From Psychrobacter glacincola (GTDB taxonomy: Bacteria > Pseudomonadota > Gammaproteobacteria > Pseudomonadales > Moraxellaceae): a DNA stretch of 64,000 nucleotides. Below the pieces are notes generated by a model that was given only the letters and a program-made list of their open reading frames with translations, was not told where the DNA came from and did no database searches. Of the stretch, positions 11,766-49,356 are shown in pieces. The translations under genes were made by a program, and so were the position numbers. Within the stretch, counting starts at the first letter, position 1. The number at the start of each line of letters is the position of its first letter. The DNA lies in contig NZ_CAJGZK010000013.1 of NCBI RefSeq assembly GCF_904846215.1, positions 1-64,000 on the forward strand, in the 5' to 3' direction.

Positions 11766-12362
11766 ATGAATGTCATGAAGAAAAGTAACCATTTTGCGAA
11801 TCCATTCAGTGCATGGAGTGGACACCGCTTGTTTCATGTTGTCGCCGGTACGCTCGTTGGCGTAATGGCTGTAACGCAAGCATCAGCGATGTTACCCACA
11901 CCAGAACAAGCCGTTAATGATTCAGTCACTGTTCAGTCAAACTTTAATCAAAACAGCCAGTCAAATGCGCAAGCGGTCAACAGTAGAATCACCGCATCAT
12001 TAATTAGTGTTGATGCCAATGGTAAAGAAGTGCTGGTTCCTGTCGATGCAAATACGCGTTTGCAGTCAGGTAATGTCTTAGAGTATCAAGGCTATTTTAC
12101 CAATACCAATACTGACCGTGTTCGTAAAATGACCGTGACGATGAGCATCCCTGAACAAGTAGAATTGTTGCGAGCCGTCTCTCCTGATTTTCCTTACGGA
12201 AGTACGGATGGCAATACCTTTGCCCGTATGCCGTTACGCGGAAAGGTTGACAATCAGCTGCAAGAGATTCCTTTAAAGTTTTATAGTGCAGTACGCTGGG
12301 ATTTGGAAGGCGTTGGTCTTAATGACACAGTCGCAGTAAAATACCGTGCCCGTGTTAAATAA
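11766..12362 (+). CDS. Secreted protein of unknown function, DUF11-like
   Basis: A 198-residue exported protein. A long basic N-region and the hydrophobic stretch VVAGTLVGVMAV end at TQASA, a good signal peptidase I site near residue 38. The mature part starts Asn/Gln-rich and then forms a beta-sandwich-like domain (GNVLEYQGYFTNTNTD, VTMSIPEQVELL, VAVKYRARVK). This resembles DUF11-type repeats of surface proteins, but a single short copy is weak evidence. ATG 11775 (MKKSNH) is an alternative start nine bases later. No partner gene is evident. Confidence 0.7.
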   Translation: MNVMKKSNHFANPFSAWSGHRLFHVVAGTLVGVMAVTQASAMLPTPEQAVNDSVTVQSNFNQNSQSNAQAVNSRITASLISVDANGKEVLVPVDANTRLQSGNVLEYQGYFTNTNTDRVRKMTVTMSIPEQVELLRAVSPDFPYGSTDGNTFARMPLRGKVDNQLQEIPLKFYSAVRWDLEGVGLNDTVAVKYRARVK

Positions 12363-12406
12363 AGCTAATTTTAATACTTTATTAGCCGATAAGTTTTTAG
12401 CCGATG

Positions 12407-25474: not shown

Positions 25475-25596
25475 TTTTGCTAAGTTTAAAAAAAGCTCTC
25501 TGTATTTTCTACTCAGTTTGGTTGTTGTCTGCGATTTCTTTTTATGTGAGATTCATGTTATATGAGATTCACGATATCTCAACCAATTGATAGATT

Positions 25597-25735
25597 TATA
25601 GTCAGATGAAAATAAAAATGTTATGAAAATTTAGACGTGCTATTGGTATAAATTTTACTGGCGTGCTGCGTTCCCAGAGGCTGCGTAAAATTCATACCAA
25701 TAGCGCTATAACACTTTTGTAGTAAACTCACTATA
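25597..25735. repeat. MITE-like element, copy 2
   Basis: A 139-bp element from TATAGTCAG to CTCACTATA, the ends being inverted repeats. Inside, GCTATTGGTATAAATTTTAC and GTAAAATTCATACCAATAGC are complementary except for one base and flank GTGCTGCGTTCCCAGAGG, making a long hairpin. It differs from copy 4 (30691) at only three or so positions. It ends 28 bases before the EamA gene. Confidence 0.85.
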
Positions 25736-30690: not shown

Positions 30691-30829
30691 TATAGTCAGA
30701 TGAAAATAAAAATGTTATGAAAGTTTAAACGCGCTATTGGTATAAATTTTACTGGCGTGCTGCGTTCCCAGAGGCTGCGTAAAATTCATACCAATAGCGC
30801 TATAACACTTTTGTAGTAAACTCACTATA
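30691..30829. repeat. MITE-like element, copy 4
   Basis: A 139-bp element almost identical to copy 2: the same TATAGTCAG and CTCACTATA ends and the same internal hairpin. It lies between pgpA and glmU, upstream of glmU. An 11-bp direct repeat, CTGTTTGGTTA, flanks it at 30682-30692 and 30833-30843. Confidence 0.85.
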
Positions 30830-43644: not shown

Positions 43645-43673
43645 TAATTGATTAGACTTAGTATGGCAAAGAG

Positions 43674-43698
43674 CCCAATCGCAAAGATTGGGTTTTTT
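43674..43698 (+). terminator. Terminator of acnA
   Basis: CCCAATC pairs with GATTGGG around GCAAA and runs into six T residues, 30 bases after the acnA stop. It marks the boundary between the housekeeping block and the AT-rich accessory operon. Confidence 0.88.
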
Positions 43699-43886
43699 CA
43701 TATTTTAAGATAAAAGGAGTGACTATTGTCATCCGCTTATATCTGGCGTTTCTGTTGAAGAGATATTACCTTCAGTTGAGTTCTGGCAACCTTCTCAATC
43801 ATAACGGATATAGCGAGGGTCATATCTAAAATACGTTTAGATGCAATACTAAATAAAGATTGAAAAGTGTCGGAAAAAATTATAAA

Positions 43887-45575
43887 TTACTTATTTATTA
43901 AGCTCAGAATCTTACTAAGATTATTTACATCTTGTGATAATAATATGGAAGATATATCAGGAGTTATTTGTGGCAATTGATTTGACCACTTTGTTAGTGA
44001 ATTGTCCCCAAAGGGATGTATGGCATTAACACATTTAATAGAGTGCTTTTCCAATATATTGTTGAATTGGTCATAGGTAGCCATATTACTAAAATACTTT
44101 TCGTATAAGCTATCTAACACTTTATAATTTCTTAATGTGTTTGAACTGCTGTATTTAGAGTCAAATATATAATAACTTACATCATCTTGCTCTTGTTTTA
44201 CTAGAACGAAGTCAGGATTGTAGTAGTTGTATTTACTTTTTGGATTGTTCTTGTTTAAAGCTACTAAGTCATTATGTTGAGTATTCTCGTTGAATCCGAG
44301 AATTTTTTTCTCGTAATAAAGATTTAACAAAGAATCTTCTTTACGAAAATTAATTTGAGATGGGATAAAACGTTTAAAAAAAGAATGTTCTACCGAACTA
44401 GTAATTTTCCATCCATCATTGTGTAAAACGTCAATCAGCTTATACATTGTAAATAATTCATATATTTTAGATGTCGACCTAATTTTAGCCAAGTCATGAT
44501 CAATTCCAATGTTAGGGTTACCTAATGAGTACCAGTCTTCTAAATAACTATAGACTGTCAAATAGAAACTAGACTTCCTTGCGAATGGTGTTAGCTTAGG
44601 AGGAATAAAACCTTCAAAATTAATTTTTAACTTTCTTTGAAGGAAATATAACAATCCATCAGTATGATTAAGTACAGAATCGATTCTTTTTTGCATTCCA
44701 GAAGTTGTTAGCTGTACATATAAATCATCAATATTAAAATTGTTTAACTTATAAAATGGTTTGATTGTTTCGTATTCTTTATCATATGTTGGTCGATATA
44801 TTTTTTTATCAATAGCATCTGATATAATTAATAGATTTTCTTTAATTGATACTAGCCCACCAAGTAGAATTTTATTCTCTTCTAAATTATAGCTGTCAAT
44901 ATAATTTTCTCTTTGTATATTATCTAATGAATAAATTTTACCGAACAATGTGAGAGAGTTCGGAGAATAACTTTGATAGAGTTGATCTAGATTATTAATC
45001 ACATCATATGGATTGATATTATAAAAATTTTTTTCGTTAGCATTTTCTTTTATTAAATCTAGTCTATTTCTCAATTCTTTATGTAAGTAGGAACTTCTTT
45101 TTTCAAAAACACTAACTATATTTTCAGCTAAACTAATAATTGTATCAAAACTAGCTTCGAAATCACCATCATTTTTAGACTTGTATTTTGTTCTAGAAAA
45201 GCATAAATCCAATATTCTTTCATTATTTTCTAACAAATATGACATCATGCTTTTTATGTTTTTAAATTTTTTCTCATCAGTTGATACATTAAATAATAGT
45301 TCACTAAGTATTTCGTCGTCAATAAATATTCTTACATTACTATACCCAAAGCTTTCACGAAATAGATGATTGGTTTCTGATTTAAAGATTAATCCATTTT
45401 CTAGTGCTATACATGGAACTTCATAGTCCTCTAAAAATATCTTAACTTTTTTTGAAGAAAAGTACTCACTATTTGGTCCAATAACCTCAAACTCAACTGT
45501 GTCCATATCAGATACATTGATAACTGGTGTAACCAAGACTTCTTCACCGCTTAAATGAACTCTTATATCAATCAT
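43887..45575 (-). CDS. DUF2357 / PD-(D/E)XK nuclease, McrC-like partner
   Basis: A 562-residue protein with an N-terminal beta-rich DUF2357-like region (about 1-250), a helical middle and a C-terminal PD-(D/E)XK nuclease. The nuclease core is visible as Glu373 in KIYELFTMYKL, Asp455 in YYNPDFVLV and Asp472-x-Lys474 in YIFDSKYSS. This is the arrangement of McrC-type nucleases that work with McrB-type AAA+ motors. The start is ATG 45575, five bases after the upstream gene's stop; TTG 45590 is also open. The operon is far richer in AT than its neighbours, which suggests transfer. The likely role is cleavage of invading DNA; the target modification is unknown. Confidence 0.82.
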   Translation of the reverse strand: MIDIRVHLSGEEVLVTPVINVSDMDTVEFEVIGPNSEYFSSKKVKIFLEDYEVPCIALENGLIFKSETNHLFRESFGYSNVRIFIDDEILSELLFNVSTDEKKFKNIKSMMSYLLENNERILDLCFSRTKYKSKNDGDFEASFDTIISLAENIVSVFEKRSSYLHKELRNRLDLIKENANEKNFYNINPYDVINNLDQLYQSYSPNSLTLFGKIYSLDNIQRENYIDSYNLEENKILLGGLVSIKENLLIISDAIDKKIYRPTYDKEYETIKPFYKLNNFNIDDLYVQLTTSGMQKRIDSVLNHTDGLLYFLQRKLKINFEGFIPPKLTPFARKSSFYLTVYSYLEDWYSLGNPNIGIDHDLAKIRSTSKIYELFTMYKLIDVLHNDGWKITSSVEHSFFKRFIPSQINFRKEDSLLNLYYEKKILGFNENTQHNDLVALNKNNPKSKYNYYNPDFVLVKQEQDDVSYYIFDSKYSSSNTLRNYKVLDSLYEKYFSNMATYDQFNNILEKHSIKCVNAIHPFGDNSLTKWSNQLPQITPDISSILLSQDVNNLSKILSLINK

Positions 45576-45580
45576 TAAAT

Positions 45581-48115
45581 TTACCAACAAAAGAAGTCAT
45601 AAGTGTGTAAGTCAGCATTTCCATTACTTATAATAGTATCTAAATAATCAACAGAACGATCTAACTCTTCTTCAGATAAAACTTCTCTCAAGCGGCTTAA
45701 TCTTTTACTAAAGTTTTTACCATGTCCTCTCAGCAAAGGTAGAATCATCTGTAAAACTGCATAATCGAGTGCTGATAATTTATCATCTATAGAGAATTCA
45801 CGCATTAGAGGTCTTGCTCTATTACAGTACTGCTTAATAGCTATTTCTTTTCGGCTACTGATAATTATTGGTTTACCTAATTCACCATTCCTTTCTTCGA
45901 GTACTTTCTTAACCTTTCCATAAATTCTATATTCATTTTCAATGAATTCAGGCCTGTTCTTAGTTTTACCAAAGCATTTCTCCATGATTTCATAAGGAAT
46001 CGGCATCTCTAGTGGATGCTCTTCGTCAATGTCTTTACCTATACTTGTTGTAATTGAATTTGGTTCTAGCACTATAATTGGTGATCTATCAATTAAACGA
46101 GGAGACAAGTACTCAGTGGTACTATCATAATTAATAGTAGCAATAAATCTTAAATTCTCTGGAATTTGAATTTGATTATCACCCAAAGTTAGTTTTTTAC
46201 TTTCTTTAGGGTCGGTTAGACCCATAAATGAAGACCAATAATGCTCTAATGGACTTAGGTTTGCTTCGTCGAGTAGAACTAGGGAAATAGGAACTGGTAA
46301 ATCTATCAACTTATCTTCTTCGCTTAATGCATATAAGAACTCATATAGCCCTGTACTACTAGATTGAAACTTATTAGAAATTGGATTAAAAAAACCGATC
46401 AGGTCTTTTTGTCCTGTCCAGCTTCTTGCAACGGGAATCTCAAGGAATCTTTGCTGTTGAATGCCATAAATTTTAGCGACGAGTCTAGCTAAGGTAGTCT
46501 TACCACCACCAGGTAATCCTGCTAGAAAACAAATAAAAGATTGTTGTAGAGTTACTGTTATATTAATAATGTCAAGGATCGAAAAATTTCTATCTTCTTT
46601 CCTCATACTATGATCAATATATTTCAAAATATCTTGTGCAGTACTATTTGACATATCAATAGATGTTACATGTTGACTAACATTTTTTGAAATTTCTTTA
46701 TTTGATAGACCTATATTTCCATTAATAGCTTCTACGAATGGTTTGAGTTCAAGTAGTCTATTACGTAGCTTATCTTCATGCTCATTGAATAAAGCCTTGA
46801 GTGATGATGTTTCTTTCTCAATCTCACCTTGTCTTTTTACTTCTATCTTATATTCATTAGTTGCTTCTTCAATTTTTTTTTCCAATTCATTTAAAGAACT
46901 AAGTTTTTTATACTTTTCTAGTAGAGGCTTAACCTGTTCATTTAGCTCAATTAACTGCTCTTTTTTTTGTGTAACTTTTTGATCTAAATCTTCATTTACC
47001 TTCAGATTATCAATTACATCAGAGTTGACCTTAATGTGATTGGCTTTTTCAATTTCCTTTCCTAGATCAATTAATTCCTGCTTATTAAACTCAATCTTCT
47101 CTTGAAGGTTTTCAAGTTCGCCATTGTTTTTTCTAAATTCATCTTCGAGCTGTCCTCTATAATTATCTCTGATATTAGATAAGTAATTATCTTCATTTTT
47201 ATCAATATATTTTTTAGTAACTTTCTCACCTAATTCAGTGCGTAAGAATTTGCTAAAACCATCTATAACCTCAGATTCAAATAGTAAATGAGTATCAGAA
47301 ATATCTTTTAGCTTGTTGAGCTTTTCAGTAAAGCTTTTATGATTGTATCTCGGAAATTTTTTTATTTTAGCTTCTATAGAAGCTAAATCAACTTTTTTAT
47401 CATTAAAGCCAATATCTTTAGCAATTTTGATAAAATTGTTTACTATATCTTCATCTGAAGAGTAGTCAGTAGTCAATAAATGAGTATCATTGTGTAAATC
47501 AGTTAAGTTTTCAAAATAGAATCTTTCACCCTCCTCTAGAGAGCAATGTAATACATGTTTGTTTAAATCTTCAAATTTTGCCGAATAAATATTACCACCT
47601 GCTAGCTGTCTACCGGGCATAGGTGAGTCGATCTTTCTTAACGTAATATTATTTTCATCGCCCTCATTTTGATCCCATTTGAACGGTCCATAACAGGTGC
47701 CATCATCATTTATATATATGTATGAGGTGCTAGGAACCTTTGAAATTCCAATTGTCATTTCATTAGGGTTAGGCAATGTATTGACAATAATTTCAACCAT
47801 TTCTCTAGGTTTTAAAGTAGAAGCTTCTGAAGCCTTTGTAACATACTTACAGTTTCTTTCAGGCCTAGTGTCTTCAGAGTCATACATTGACTCTATGACA
47901 GTTACTTTAAACAGTTCAAATTCTTTGAATTTATTGTCTATTTCTTCATAATCTCTCGTGACAAAAATTTTCTTTGAAGGACAAAAGTTTAGAGCATCTA
48001 ACTCAATATAAGAGTCACCATCTTTAGCGGCTACAGCTCTTAAATAACCCAAAGTAGGCTTATTCTGTTGAGCCTGAAGCTTATAAACAATTACTTCTTT
48101 TGATAAATTTTCCAT
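45581..48115 (-). CDS. McrB-like AAA+ NTPase with long coiled coil
   Basis: An 844-residue protein. Residues about 1-200 are a beta-rich N-terminal region that may recognise the target (YIYINDDGTCYGPF). Residues about 300-460 are heptad-rich, Lys/Glu/Leu coiled coil. The C-terminal AAA+ domain has Walker A GLPGGGKTT (Lys539), Walker B LVLLDEAN (Asp616-Glu617), sensor ATINYDSTTEYLSPRLIDRS with Asn662, and candidate Arg fingers 673 and 677. AAA+ domains with LLDEAN and LSPRLIDR-type segments occur in the McrB/MoxR area. The nuclease gene follows after five bases. Whether it uses GTP like McrB or ATP is undecided: the McrB MNTAD motif is replaced by INYD. Confidence 0.85.
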   Translation of the reverse strand: MENLSKEVIVYKLQAQQNKPTLGYLRAVAAKDGDSYIELDALNFCPSKKIFVTRDYEEIDNKFKEFELFKVTVIESMYDSEDTRPERNCKYVTKASEASTLKPREMVEIIVNTLPNPNEMTIGISKVPSTSYIYINDDGTCYGPFKWDQNEGDENNITLRKIDSPMPGRQLAGGNIYSAKFEDLNKHVLHCSLEEGERFYFENLTDLHNDTHLLTTDYSSDEDIVNNFIKIAKDIGFNDKKVDLASIEAKIKKFPRYNHKSFTEKLNKLKDISDTHLLFESEVIDGFSKFLRTELGEKVTKKYIDKNEDNYLSNIRDNYRGQLEDEFRKNNGELENLQEKIEFNKQELIDLGKEIEKANHIKVNSDVIDNLKVNEDLDQKVTQKKEQLIELNEQVKPLLEKYKKLSSLNELEKKIEEATNEYKIEVKRQGEIEKETSSLKALFNEHEDKLRNRLLELKPFVEAINGNIGLSNKEISKNVSQHVTSIDMSNSTAQDILKYIDHSMRKEDRNFSILDIINITVTLQQSFICFLAGLPGGGKTTLARLVAKIYGIQQQRFLEIPVARSWTGQKDLIGFFNPISNKFQSSSTGLYEFLYALSEEDKLIDLPVPISLVLLDEANLSPLEHYWSSFMGLTDPKESKKLTLGDNQIQIPENLRFIATINYDSTTEYLSPRLIDRSPIIVLEPNSITTSIGKDIDEEHPLEMPIPYEIMEKCFGKTKNRPEFIENEYRIYGKVKKVLEERNGELGKPIIISSRKEIAIKQYCNRARPLMREFSIDDKLSALDYAVLQMILPLLRGHGKNFSKRLSRLREVLSEEELDRSVDYLDTIISNGNADLHTYDFFCW

Positions 48116-48283
48116 TATTAGACACTTACCATCTATAGTTAGATTTACTTAAAAATTGAACCTAATATATCATAGAAAGGCAAATTGCCTATCCATAATC
48201 AACAAAATTTTGCTATTAGTATTGTATATCTACAATTTTAAAAAAATATGTTATTACTAGCCTGATTTAATCAATATACAATT

Positions 48284-48466
48284 TCAGCTATAACATGGCA
48301 GATTAAGTCTTTTAATAATTTCCTGTGAAAACTTTAAAAGTCTAGCCCATCTTTGCTCTACAGTAGATAGAACGTGCTTCAAGCCAGAGTTAATTGATTC
48401 GTAAAAGAATATGTTTACAGTACACATCAGGGTAAATTTATTTCTAATAAGGTAGTACAGTCTAGA
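48284..48466 (-). pseudogene. Possible decayed gene fragment (transposase-like?)
   Basis: An open minus-strand stretch of about 60 codons between stop codons reads SINSGLKHVLSTVEQRWAR, then LLKFSQEIIKRLNLPCYS and a stop. It has the look of the C-terminal end of a real protein, perhaps a transposase, but I cannot name the family. Upstream it is interrupted by a stop codon and then by repeat copy 7. Evidence is weak. Confidence 0.25.
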
Positions 48467-48471
48467 TTACA

Positions 48472-48618
48472 TATAGTCAGTTCAATATGAAAGAGGTACG
48501 TTAAAAATAGCGTTCTGCTAGTATAAACTTTCCTCGCTTGCTGTGCGCTTCGCACTCCAAAGGCTTCGAAAAATCTATCCTAGAAGCACTGTATTCTTTT
48601 TAAATTGAATCGACTATA
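48472..48618. repeat. MITE-like element, copy 7
   Basis: A 147-bp element with well-matched ends: TATAGTCAGTTCAATATGAAA-type on the left (first 20: TATAGTCAGTTCAATATGAA), and on the right, read from the other strand, TATAGTCGATTCAATTTAAA. The core CTTTCCTCGCTTGCTGTGCG with CAAAGGCTTCGAAAAAT is a diverged form of that in copies 1 and 3. Confidence 0.78.
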
Positions 48619-48702
48619 GTATCTTTTACGCTGCTAGACGCTCGTTATTACTAGCTTAAAAACATTTTTTTTGATATCACATTGCAATGTTAGGTTCCTT
48701 AT

Positions 48703-49356
48703 TCAACCTTTCTCAGTCAGCAGCTTGATCCCCATTCCAATAAATATAACCCCACTTATTCTATTTAAAATCACTTCTATCGTGGGATTTTTGCGCAGGT
48801 TTTCACTGAATTTTGACGCTAATAATGCCAAACACGAGCACCATATAAAACCGGTTGTCGCAAAGGTCAGACCAAGTATCAAAAACGACAGCATACTATT
48901 GGTATAACTGGGGTTAATAAATTGCGGGAAGAATGCGAGGAAAAATAAGGCAACTTTTGGGTTAAAGGTATTGGTGATAACCCCTTGCTTATAGATCTGC
49001 CATCTATCTAAAGATTGAGCAGTTGCCATTTTTTTCTCATCATGTGCATTACTAGCAAGTAAAGGCGTCTGTTTACTAGTCAGCATTTTAAAGCCTAGAT
49101 AGCATAAGTAGCTCGCACCAATATATTTCACTAGCGTAAATGCAAGTGGGGAACTGGCCAATAATACGGACAACCCAAACGCAGCCAATAAAGTATGAAC
49201 TAAAATCCCCGAGGTAATCCCTAGTACCGAATAGAACCCAGCAGTTTGTCCTTGCGACATACTACGAGTGATGATATACATACTATCGGTACCAGGGGTT
49301 ACGTTTAACAAAATGGCAGCAAGTATAAATCCAAGATAGTTCTCAATACCAAACAT
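48703..49356 (-). CDS. LysE/RhtB-family amino-acid exporter
   Basis: A 217-residue inner-membrane exporter of the LysE family. The N-terminal NYLGFILAAILLNVTPGTDSMYI contains the conserved PGxD motif (quoted part: LLNVTPGTDSMYI). It is followed by GQTAGFYSVLGITSGILVH and KYIGASYLCYLGFKML, and six hydrophobic helices can be traced. Relatives export lysine, threonine or homoserine lactones; the substrate here is unknown. ATG 49356 is chosen since AAGGAAG lies about eight bases upstream; the longer TTG start at 49362 would begin inside that spacing. Confidence 0.9.
   Translation of the reverse strand: MFGIENYLGFILAAILLNVTPGTDSMYIITRSMSQGQTAGFYSVLGITSGILVHTLLAAFGLSVLLASSPLAFTLVKYIGASYLCYLGFKMLTSKQTPLLASNAHDEKKMATAQSLDRWQIYKQGVITNTFNPKVALFFLAFFPQFINPSYTNSMLSFLILGLTFATTGFIWCSCLALLASKFSENLRKNPTIEVILNRISGVIFIGMGIKLLTEKG

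Follow-up and report, generated by a model that had tools for sequence, protein, structure and literature searches.

A candidate mobile two-gene restriction module of the coiled-coil McrBC type in Psychrobacter glacincola

An NxD motor paired with a McrC-like nuclease

A stretch of 64 000 nucleotides from Psychrobacter glacincola (assembly GCF_904846215.1, contig NZ_CAJGZK010000013.1, positions 1–64 000 of the forward strand; hereafter the window) contains two adjacent minus-strand genes that encode an AAA+ motor resembling McrB and a nuclease resembling McrC. We assign the pair with high confidence to the McrBC systems that carry an NxD motif and a coiled coil. Judged by its sequence and predicted structures, it is probably a mobile two-gene restriction (defence) system of this branch, most like the Type I-C CoCoNuTs. 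According to a survey of these systems (Bell et al. 2024, PMC11090510), on which all statements about CoCoNuT features below depend, the NxD motif defines a major branch of McrBC systems, coiled-coil fusions within that branch are the CoCoNuTs, and Types I-A and I-C consist of the McrB and McrC homologues alone. The kind of system is already described and the family is widespread; no report of an experimental test of such a Type I pair was found in the open literature searched.

An initial annotation of this DNA had proposed a CoCoNuT-type module without mentioning the NxD motif, the presence of which (N662-Y663-D664) strengthens the proposal. The motor's NYD aligns with the NTAD of Escherichia coli McrB, with one residue fewer, and N662 and D664 are invariant in 78 aligned motors (window included), as are K539 of Walker A, D616 and E617 of Walker B, R677 and R755. 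In the nuclease, E373, P454, D455, D472 and K474 are invariant in 75 aligned sequences, again with the window included; D455, D472 and K474 are matched in E. coli McrC, and E373 is not. Such invariance across 78 motors and 75 nucleases argues that the catalytic residues are not a chance occurrence, and all those named in the initial annotation (K539, D616-E617, E373, D455, D472 and K474) are in place.

Relatives were gathered with a seven-sequence motor alignment, from which we took the best 80 of 367 loci in a genome collection and 12 loci in a viral collection where a single-sequence scan had returned nothing. A same-strand partner open reading frame (ORF) of at least 200 amino acids (aa) follows the motor in 74 of the 80 genome loci and 11 of the 12 viral-collection loci, with a median gap of 6 and 8 bases, respectively; three of the seven partnerless loci end within 276 bases of the motor. 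The motor alignment holds 77 of the 92 loci plus the window (L099, L109, L110 and truncated or short motors excluded), and the nuclease alignment 74 of the 92 plus the window (the same three loci, and partners absent or outside 500–720 aa, excluded). L061, L065, L087 and L109 escaped a loose text pattern for NxD; of these, L061 and L065 are within the 78 motors where the alignment finds N and D invariant. The spacer between Walker B and NxD measures 43–51 residues in all 78 motors, and a long insert occupies it in L016. Going by record titles, the family extends over proteobacteria, Bacteroidota and Firmicutes, its members being carried on plasmids, islands and chromosomes or contigs.

Gene layout and composition

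The gene coordinates and the gap of 5 bases given in the initial annotation hold when the nuclease begins at ATG 45575 (MIDIRV). The longest nuclease ORF has a TTG start at 45590, yet the ATG is probably the true start, in agreement with that of the L015 homologue; the gaps in L019, L020 and L022 are also 5 bases. The claim of AT-richness was equally accurate, with a GC fraction of 0.301 in the module and 0.438 in the remainder of the window, and among same-length stretches sampled every 500 bases across the window the one with the lowest GC overlaps the module. Within the insert that carries the module (Table 1), the window's ORF list has no further ORF of at least 90 aa, and no methyltransferase was seen among the ORFs read; the operon thus consists of the McrB and McrC homologues alone. 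Part of the insert is an AT-rich tract of ~590 bases between the module and the LysE-like gene (48116–48702) with no ORF of 90 aa. A promoter scan gave no excess over shuffled sequences (25 versus a mean of 27.2).

Table 1. Features of the module and its insertion in window coordinates
Feature	Position	Strand	Basis
AAA+ motor, McrB-like (CnuB-like), 844 aa	45581..48115	-	ORF, alignment, AlphaFold2 (AF2) model, fold comparison
McrC-like nuclease (CnuC-like), 562 aa	43887..45575	-	ORF, alignment, AF2 model, fold comparison
Walker A GLPGGGKT, residues 533–540, with K539	46496..46519	-	Sequence; K539 invariant 78/78
Walker B D616-E617	46265..46270	-	Sequence; invariant 78/78
NxD motif N662-Y663-D664 (E. 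coli McrB: NTAD)	46124..46132	-	Alignment; N and D invariant 78/78
PD-(D/E)XK core, D455 to K474	44154..44213	-	D455, D472, K474 invariant 75/75; matched in E. coli McrC
Inserted segment, ~5.0 kb, from the terminator-like hairpin of the aconitase-like gene to the LysE-like gene	43699..48702	.	Alignment to the empty site of G078
Terminator-like hairpin 3' of the aconitase-like gene, where empty-site similarity ends	43668..43698	+	Alignment, hairpin scan

Predicted structures of the two proteins

The motor comprises a beta-rich N-terminal region (residues 1–217), helices, a coiled coil (~308–465) and the NxD AAA+ domain (~490–834). Its AF2 model has a mean predicted local distance difference test score (pLDDT) of 83.3 and a predicted template modelling score (pTM) of 0.50, and the nuclease model reaches 84.1 and 0.68, respectively; both models appear good for single domains and less so for domain arrangement. 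The long central coiled coil reported in the initial annotation is supported by long predicted helices at residues 308–362 and 373–465 together with heptad windows above the 99% shuffle threshold at 321–361, 374–407 and 441–478. Two extra heptad windows, 477–506 and 525–555, fall at or within the AAA domain, so the heptad test by itself is not specific.

The annotation's claim of McrB and McrC homology agrees with the predicted folds, which match McrB and McrC chains. In second-look structure comparisons, which hold among the matches listed, the AAA+ domain aligned with E. coli McrB over 181 residues (Z 16.3, root-mean-square deviation (rmsd) 2.8, 24% identity), a score tied by a YdjA-YdiS model chain (Z 16.4) and the putative ATPase 2r44 (Z 16.3), both at 15% identity. 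Searches with the whole motor returned mainly AAA domain matches, and in a viral structure library the 50 matches listed are for the most part AAA proteins, MoxR-like ones among them.

In the N-terminal region, AF2 places five strands in residues 1–75 and more at ~91–217. Residues 142–145 read YGPF, with G143 present in 78, P144 in 76 and F145 in 64 of the 78 motors. For family searches, the first 220 residues were aligned for 49 of these motors; a comparison of the region with a CspA profile gave no match (probability 0.2%). An FtsB-like transmembrane helix, as on the McrB-like protein of CoCoPALM, was looked for by hydropathy only: the three top-scoring windows of 19 residues (mean up to 1.6) fall at 513–534 inside the AAA domain, and none of the three is in the N-terminal part.

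The nuclease is predicted to consist of an Ig-like beta sandwich (residues 1–99), a DUF2357-like helical part (~101–353) and a PD-(D/E)XK domain (~363–562). The nuclease domain postulated in the initial annotation is thus present in the AF2 model, and the top three Foldseek matches in the PDB are McrC chains: 6ut7 from Thermococcus gammatolerans (E 3.3e-6), 6hz4 (4.1e-6) and 6ut6 from E. coli (6.9e-5). Residues 141–353 aligned with T. gammatolerans McrC over 136 positions (Z 10.9, rmsd 3.1), other McrC chains gave Z of at least 10 with rmsd 11–16 while spanning more of the protein, and residues 1–99 matched filamin Ig-like domains (Z 11.1, rmsd 2.2, 92 aligned). By sequence profile the window nuclease is elusive: no Pfam family reaches its cut-off (best PDDEXK_7, E 0.058), PADLOC gives nothing better than E 0.015 and NCBIfam has no match of weight. 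The Pfam DUF2357 model misses it as well, and matches 30 of the 75 aligned members at 1e-3.

Insertion site and spread within the genus

The module is flanked on the left by an aconitase-like gene and on the right by a LysE-like gene followed by two tRNA genes, the two protein labels being readings of the translations made with no family search. In all 12 other genus genomes examined, hand-picked out of 60 searched, the module is absent between the flanking genes, which are spaced ~35 to 1400 bases apart. In the empty site of G078, similarity ends at 43698, the end of the hairpin, and restarts at 48703, with the aligned flanks 34 bases apart. A list of repeats at the insert ends showed no obvious terminal repeat or target-site duplication, most entries resembling AT-rich chance matches.

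Across 105 genomes of the genus, the nuclease was found at an E-value of 1e-10 or better in four, the window's own included. An early survey of 57 genomes gave motor matches in seven, of full length only in the window's own genome and in G008, which is one of the 12 empty-site genomes and carries its copy elsewhere, on a 10.6 kb contig (L015) with a Rep3 replication gene and an Abi_2/AbiD gene. A survey of the class with the DUF2357 model found 3 of 229 genomes at 1e-8 and none of 14 controls, and must undercount since the model misses the window's own nuclease. Among the other close copies, L019 has the module between both flanking genes; L021 (Psychrobacter immobilis) has it beside the aconitase-like gene, the other side being off the contig; and L020 and L022 are without these flanks. 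The L019 contig is filed under Candidatus Saccharibacteria and is ~83–85% identical to the window across the aconitase-like gene, and it probably represents Psychrobacter DNA that was mis-binned. A repeat of 80-odd bases, present twice in the window (25594–25678 and 30691–30772), recurs once in L020 shortly after the end of the nuclease gene (12298–12383).

Other ORFs were seen at the same site in further strains. L146 has a 321-aa protein (847–1812) that matches the PADLOC candidate PDC-S64 (4.9e-64), and L143 an ORF with the same start, the PADLOC scan having been made on L146 only. L142 carries an AT-rich 446-aa protein (486–1826) without a Pfam or PADLOC match at 0.01, possibly a cargo or defence gene. 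Different ORFs at one position mean that the site takes different cargo by strain, and the gap between the aconitase-like and LysE-like genes apparently serves the genus as a small hot spot for cargo.

Pairwise rates of nonsynonymous (dN) and synonymous (dS) substitution suggest that the pair is under purifying selection. Between the window and L021, dN is 0.005 and dS 0.038 for the nuclease, and dN is 0 and dS 0.032 for the last 357 codons of the motor. Against L019 the motor gives dN 0.20 and dS 2.1, which is near saturation, and dS of the nuclease is undefined. The initial annotation had called the system complete and active; what stands of this is a pair of intact genes apparently kept by purifying selection, and the support extends that far.

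Plasmids, islands and neighbouring genes

Motor relatives, none reaching 60% identity, are present in 289 plasmid records, 27 of which cover at least 80% of the motor; in the plasmids opened, the motor is followed by a partner annotated as DUF2357 or hypothetical. Among 50 697 phage records there is one match to the motor, over 22%. The E. coli relative L053 recurs in near-identical form in 7 of 5426 E. coli genomes, and the one such copy opened is located between yfgJ and der, next to a tyrosine recombinase (integrase). The absence of the module from the site in 12 of 12 genomes, the presence of the nuclease in 4 of 105, the plasmid homologues and the integrase alongside the E. coli copy support the conclusion that the module is mobile.

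We scanned 274 nearest neighbours from 75 loci in two batches (146 and 128) at 1e-15, excluding 14 near-duplicate or same-site loci and neighbours longer than 1500 aa; three further loci gave none. The families considered are the first 25 of 105 and of 82, ATPase models among them may cross-match, and the scan had no control set. The matches listed include Specificity_I, SduA, SNF2-type defence helicases (three members), REase_II, MTase_II, GajA, Old and IetA, and no constant third gene appears among the neighbour families listed. The copy on an Acinetobacter baumannii plasmid (L010) adjoins an MvaI/BcnI-type restriction set. On the window's own contig but beyond the window, at ~67–79 kb, L018 (3047–15414) encodes MTase_I, Specificity_I and REase_I, a PDC-S20-type protein and an argonaute-associated REase-like protein; this Type I restriction set lies ~19–31 kb from the module.

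Several of these results weigh against reading the pair as a mobile restriction system of the McrBC type. No listed neighbour model matched more than 3 neighbours in the batch of 146 or more than 1 in that of 128, and the scans show association in some loci, not enrichment. The defence context that the initial annotation had assumed is accordingly borne out in part: the patchy insert, the plasmid homologues and some defence neighbours elsewhere speak for it, whereas the window copy has no defence gene adjoining and sits between housekeeping-like genes. With the nuclease as protein query just 2 plasmid records came up, compared with 289 for the motor, and either the nucleases diverge faster or the partners differ. 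The motor frame of L021 is broken within the coiled coil, on a contig that stops before the gene start, which is either a draft error or decay. On the structural side, the top Foldseek ranks for the motor are MCM, Lon and dynein, not McrB, and the whole-chain matches of the nuclease to McrC have TM-scores of only 0.19–0.30 with rmsd 16–17; the case for homology to McrB and McrC is consequently one of single domains and motifs. NxD is followed by S in the window motor, a position at which members of the NxD branch usually have E or D (PMC11090510). Finally, the N-terminal region of the motor matched nothing among PDB sequences up to E 10, and in Pfam only eight weak families, each in 1 of the 49 members (best 0.042).

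The latter two points bring up another classification, namely that the pair falls outside the seven CoCoNuT subtypes and represents an unnamed NxD coiled-coil lineage apart from them, with a recognition region of its own at the N-terminus. We regard this as possible but doubtful. The N-terminal 220 residues of 49 relatives lack a convincing Pfam or PDB-sequence match, the GPF motif is common to the motors and the window motor has neither D nor E after NxD; however, the architecture, gene order and Ig-like domain fit the Type I-C description in the survey (PMC11090510). A related and similarly tentative idea is that of a broad NxD McrBC lineage in which the conserved, beta-rich GPF module would recognise a novel mark or structure on invading nucleic acid. 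If true, this single family would constitute a restriction system in its own right, one whose nuclease core is always intact.

Proposed mechanism and target

In McrBC, the motor forms rings around McrC that are driven by nucleoside triphosphate (NTP), and cutting is licensed after target recognition by the N-terminal domain (PMC11090510, PMC8989522). By analogy, NTP-driven restriction of phage or plasmid nucleic acid is the most likely function of the pair. The motor would assemble into NTP-hydrolysing rings around the helical, DUF2357-like part of the nuclease, the nucleotide probably being GTP as in McrB. Its N-terminal beta domains may recognise some feature by which nucleic acid is foreign or modified, a step that is a guess because the region has no family or structure match, and the coiled coil could relay the recognition signal or act as a spacer. 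NTP-driven movement would then bring the PD-(D/E)XK domain to cut, and incoming phage or plasmid DNA (less likely RNA) would be destroyed. The insert has no methyltransferase, and self-protection would for this reason have to depend on recognising a mark or structure that is non-self, in the manner of Type IV restriction.

The absence of a methyltransferase in the insert also speaks against a restriction-modification pair of the classical kind, as exemplified by PcaI. That the two genes are the restriction half of a PcaI-like system, the methyltransferase having been lost or dispensed with, is in our view very improbable. PcaIAB, an AAA+ GTPase with a DUF2357 nuclease, does partner with a Dcm-type methyltransferase (PMC8989522), and L010 has a cytosine methyltransferase nearby. 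The latter, however, sits beside its own MvaI/BcnI-type nuclease, and methyltransferase models each account for a single neighbour of the 128 in one batch, with none in the matches listed for the other 146. The whole window genome was not searched for a distant methyltransferase, and the Type I set is 19–31 kb away; a nuclease of this kind without a methyltransferase would presumably attack its own genome.

An RNA target is a more credible alternative, though still an unlikely one: the system would sense modified or stalled translation RNA on infection and the nuclease would cut RNA, leading to abortive infection. The survey predicts an RNA target for CoCoNuTs from CSD-like, YTH-like and HEPN domains while also allowing DNA; in the same source, the PD-(D/E)XK fold is described as generally DNA-specific with some RNase exceptions (PMC11090510). 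In our data the PD-(D/E)XK core is complete in 75 of 75 aligned relatives, the insert holds no additional ORF of at least 90 aa, and the N-terminal region of the motor has no CSD or YTH match in Pfam, PDB sequences or the CspA profile comparison. Contrary to the survey's RNA view, we thus consider DNA the more likely substrate, given the strictly kept nuclease core and the lack of an accompanying gene.

Compact, with its nuclease intact and its insert free of accessory genes, the putative restriction module is convenient for testing GTP hydrolysis by NxD motors, and also suited to asking whether the branch cuts DNA or RNA and which feature it recognises. Its presence in 4 of 105 genomes of one genus, together with clean empty sites, shows gain and loss of such modules.

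Comparison with known systems

CoCoPALM has a linked signal-peptidase-family gene; the neighbours in the window read instead as aconitase-like and LysE-like, labels assigned with no family search. The motor matches the PADLOC candidate PDC-M26A (7.1e-32, best stretch residues 293–635), and for the nuclease no comparable PADLOC match exists (none better than E 0.015); the name 'PDC-M26' was not found in the open literature searched. PcaIAB is alike in combining an AAA+ GTPase with a DUF2357 nuclease subunit, but works with a Dcm-like methyltransferase (PMC8989522), for which the insert has no counterpart.

E. coli K-12 McrBC shares the AAA+ motor and the McrC-like nuclease with conserved D-D-x-K, and is among the best fold matches. 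Its genes are shorter (1380 and 1047 bases), and the NTAD of its McrB contrasts with the NYD of the window motor, which does not have the canonical NxxD motif. In the survey, E. coli McrC has no Ig-like domain, and canonical McrB has a small DNA-binding domain in place of the coiled coil (PMC11090510).

Among the CoCoNuTs, Type I-A is distinguished by a helical insert that separates Walker B from NxD (PMC11090510) and that the window motor does not have. A Type I-A-like pair from another genus genome (L016, 9077–13971) shares the NxD motor and a DUF2357/PDDEXK_7 partner, and it differs from the window pair by a long Walker B–NxD insert and a Cys-rich C-terminus. For Type I-C, whose reference sequences are GFD85286.1 and MBV0932851.1, the same source describes a motor N-terminus with a CSD-like fold, often with a YTH-like domain before the coiled coil, and for Type I CnuC an Ig-like N-terminal domain (PMC11090510). 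The window motor departs from this description in the S after NxD, where D or E is expected, and in lacking a sequence or profile match to CSD. In the remaining features the pair resembles Type I-C (CnuB-CnuC): a two-gene operon, an NxD AAA+ domain preceded by a coiled coil and a beta-rich N-terminus, and a McrC-like partner with an Ig-like domain, DUF2357-like helices and a PD-(D/E)XK domain. The combination of NxD motif, coiled coil, Ig-like domain and two-gene operon with the lack of a Walker B–NxD insert points to Type I-C, which is the likeliest label for the pair by published description rather than by tree.

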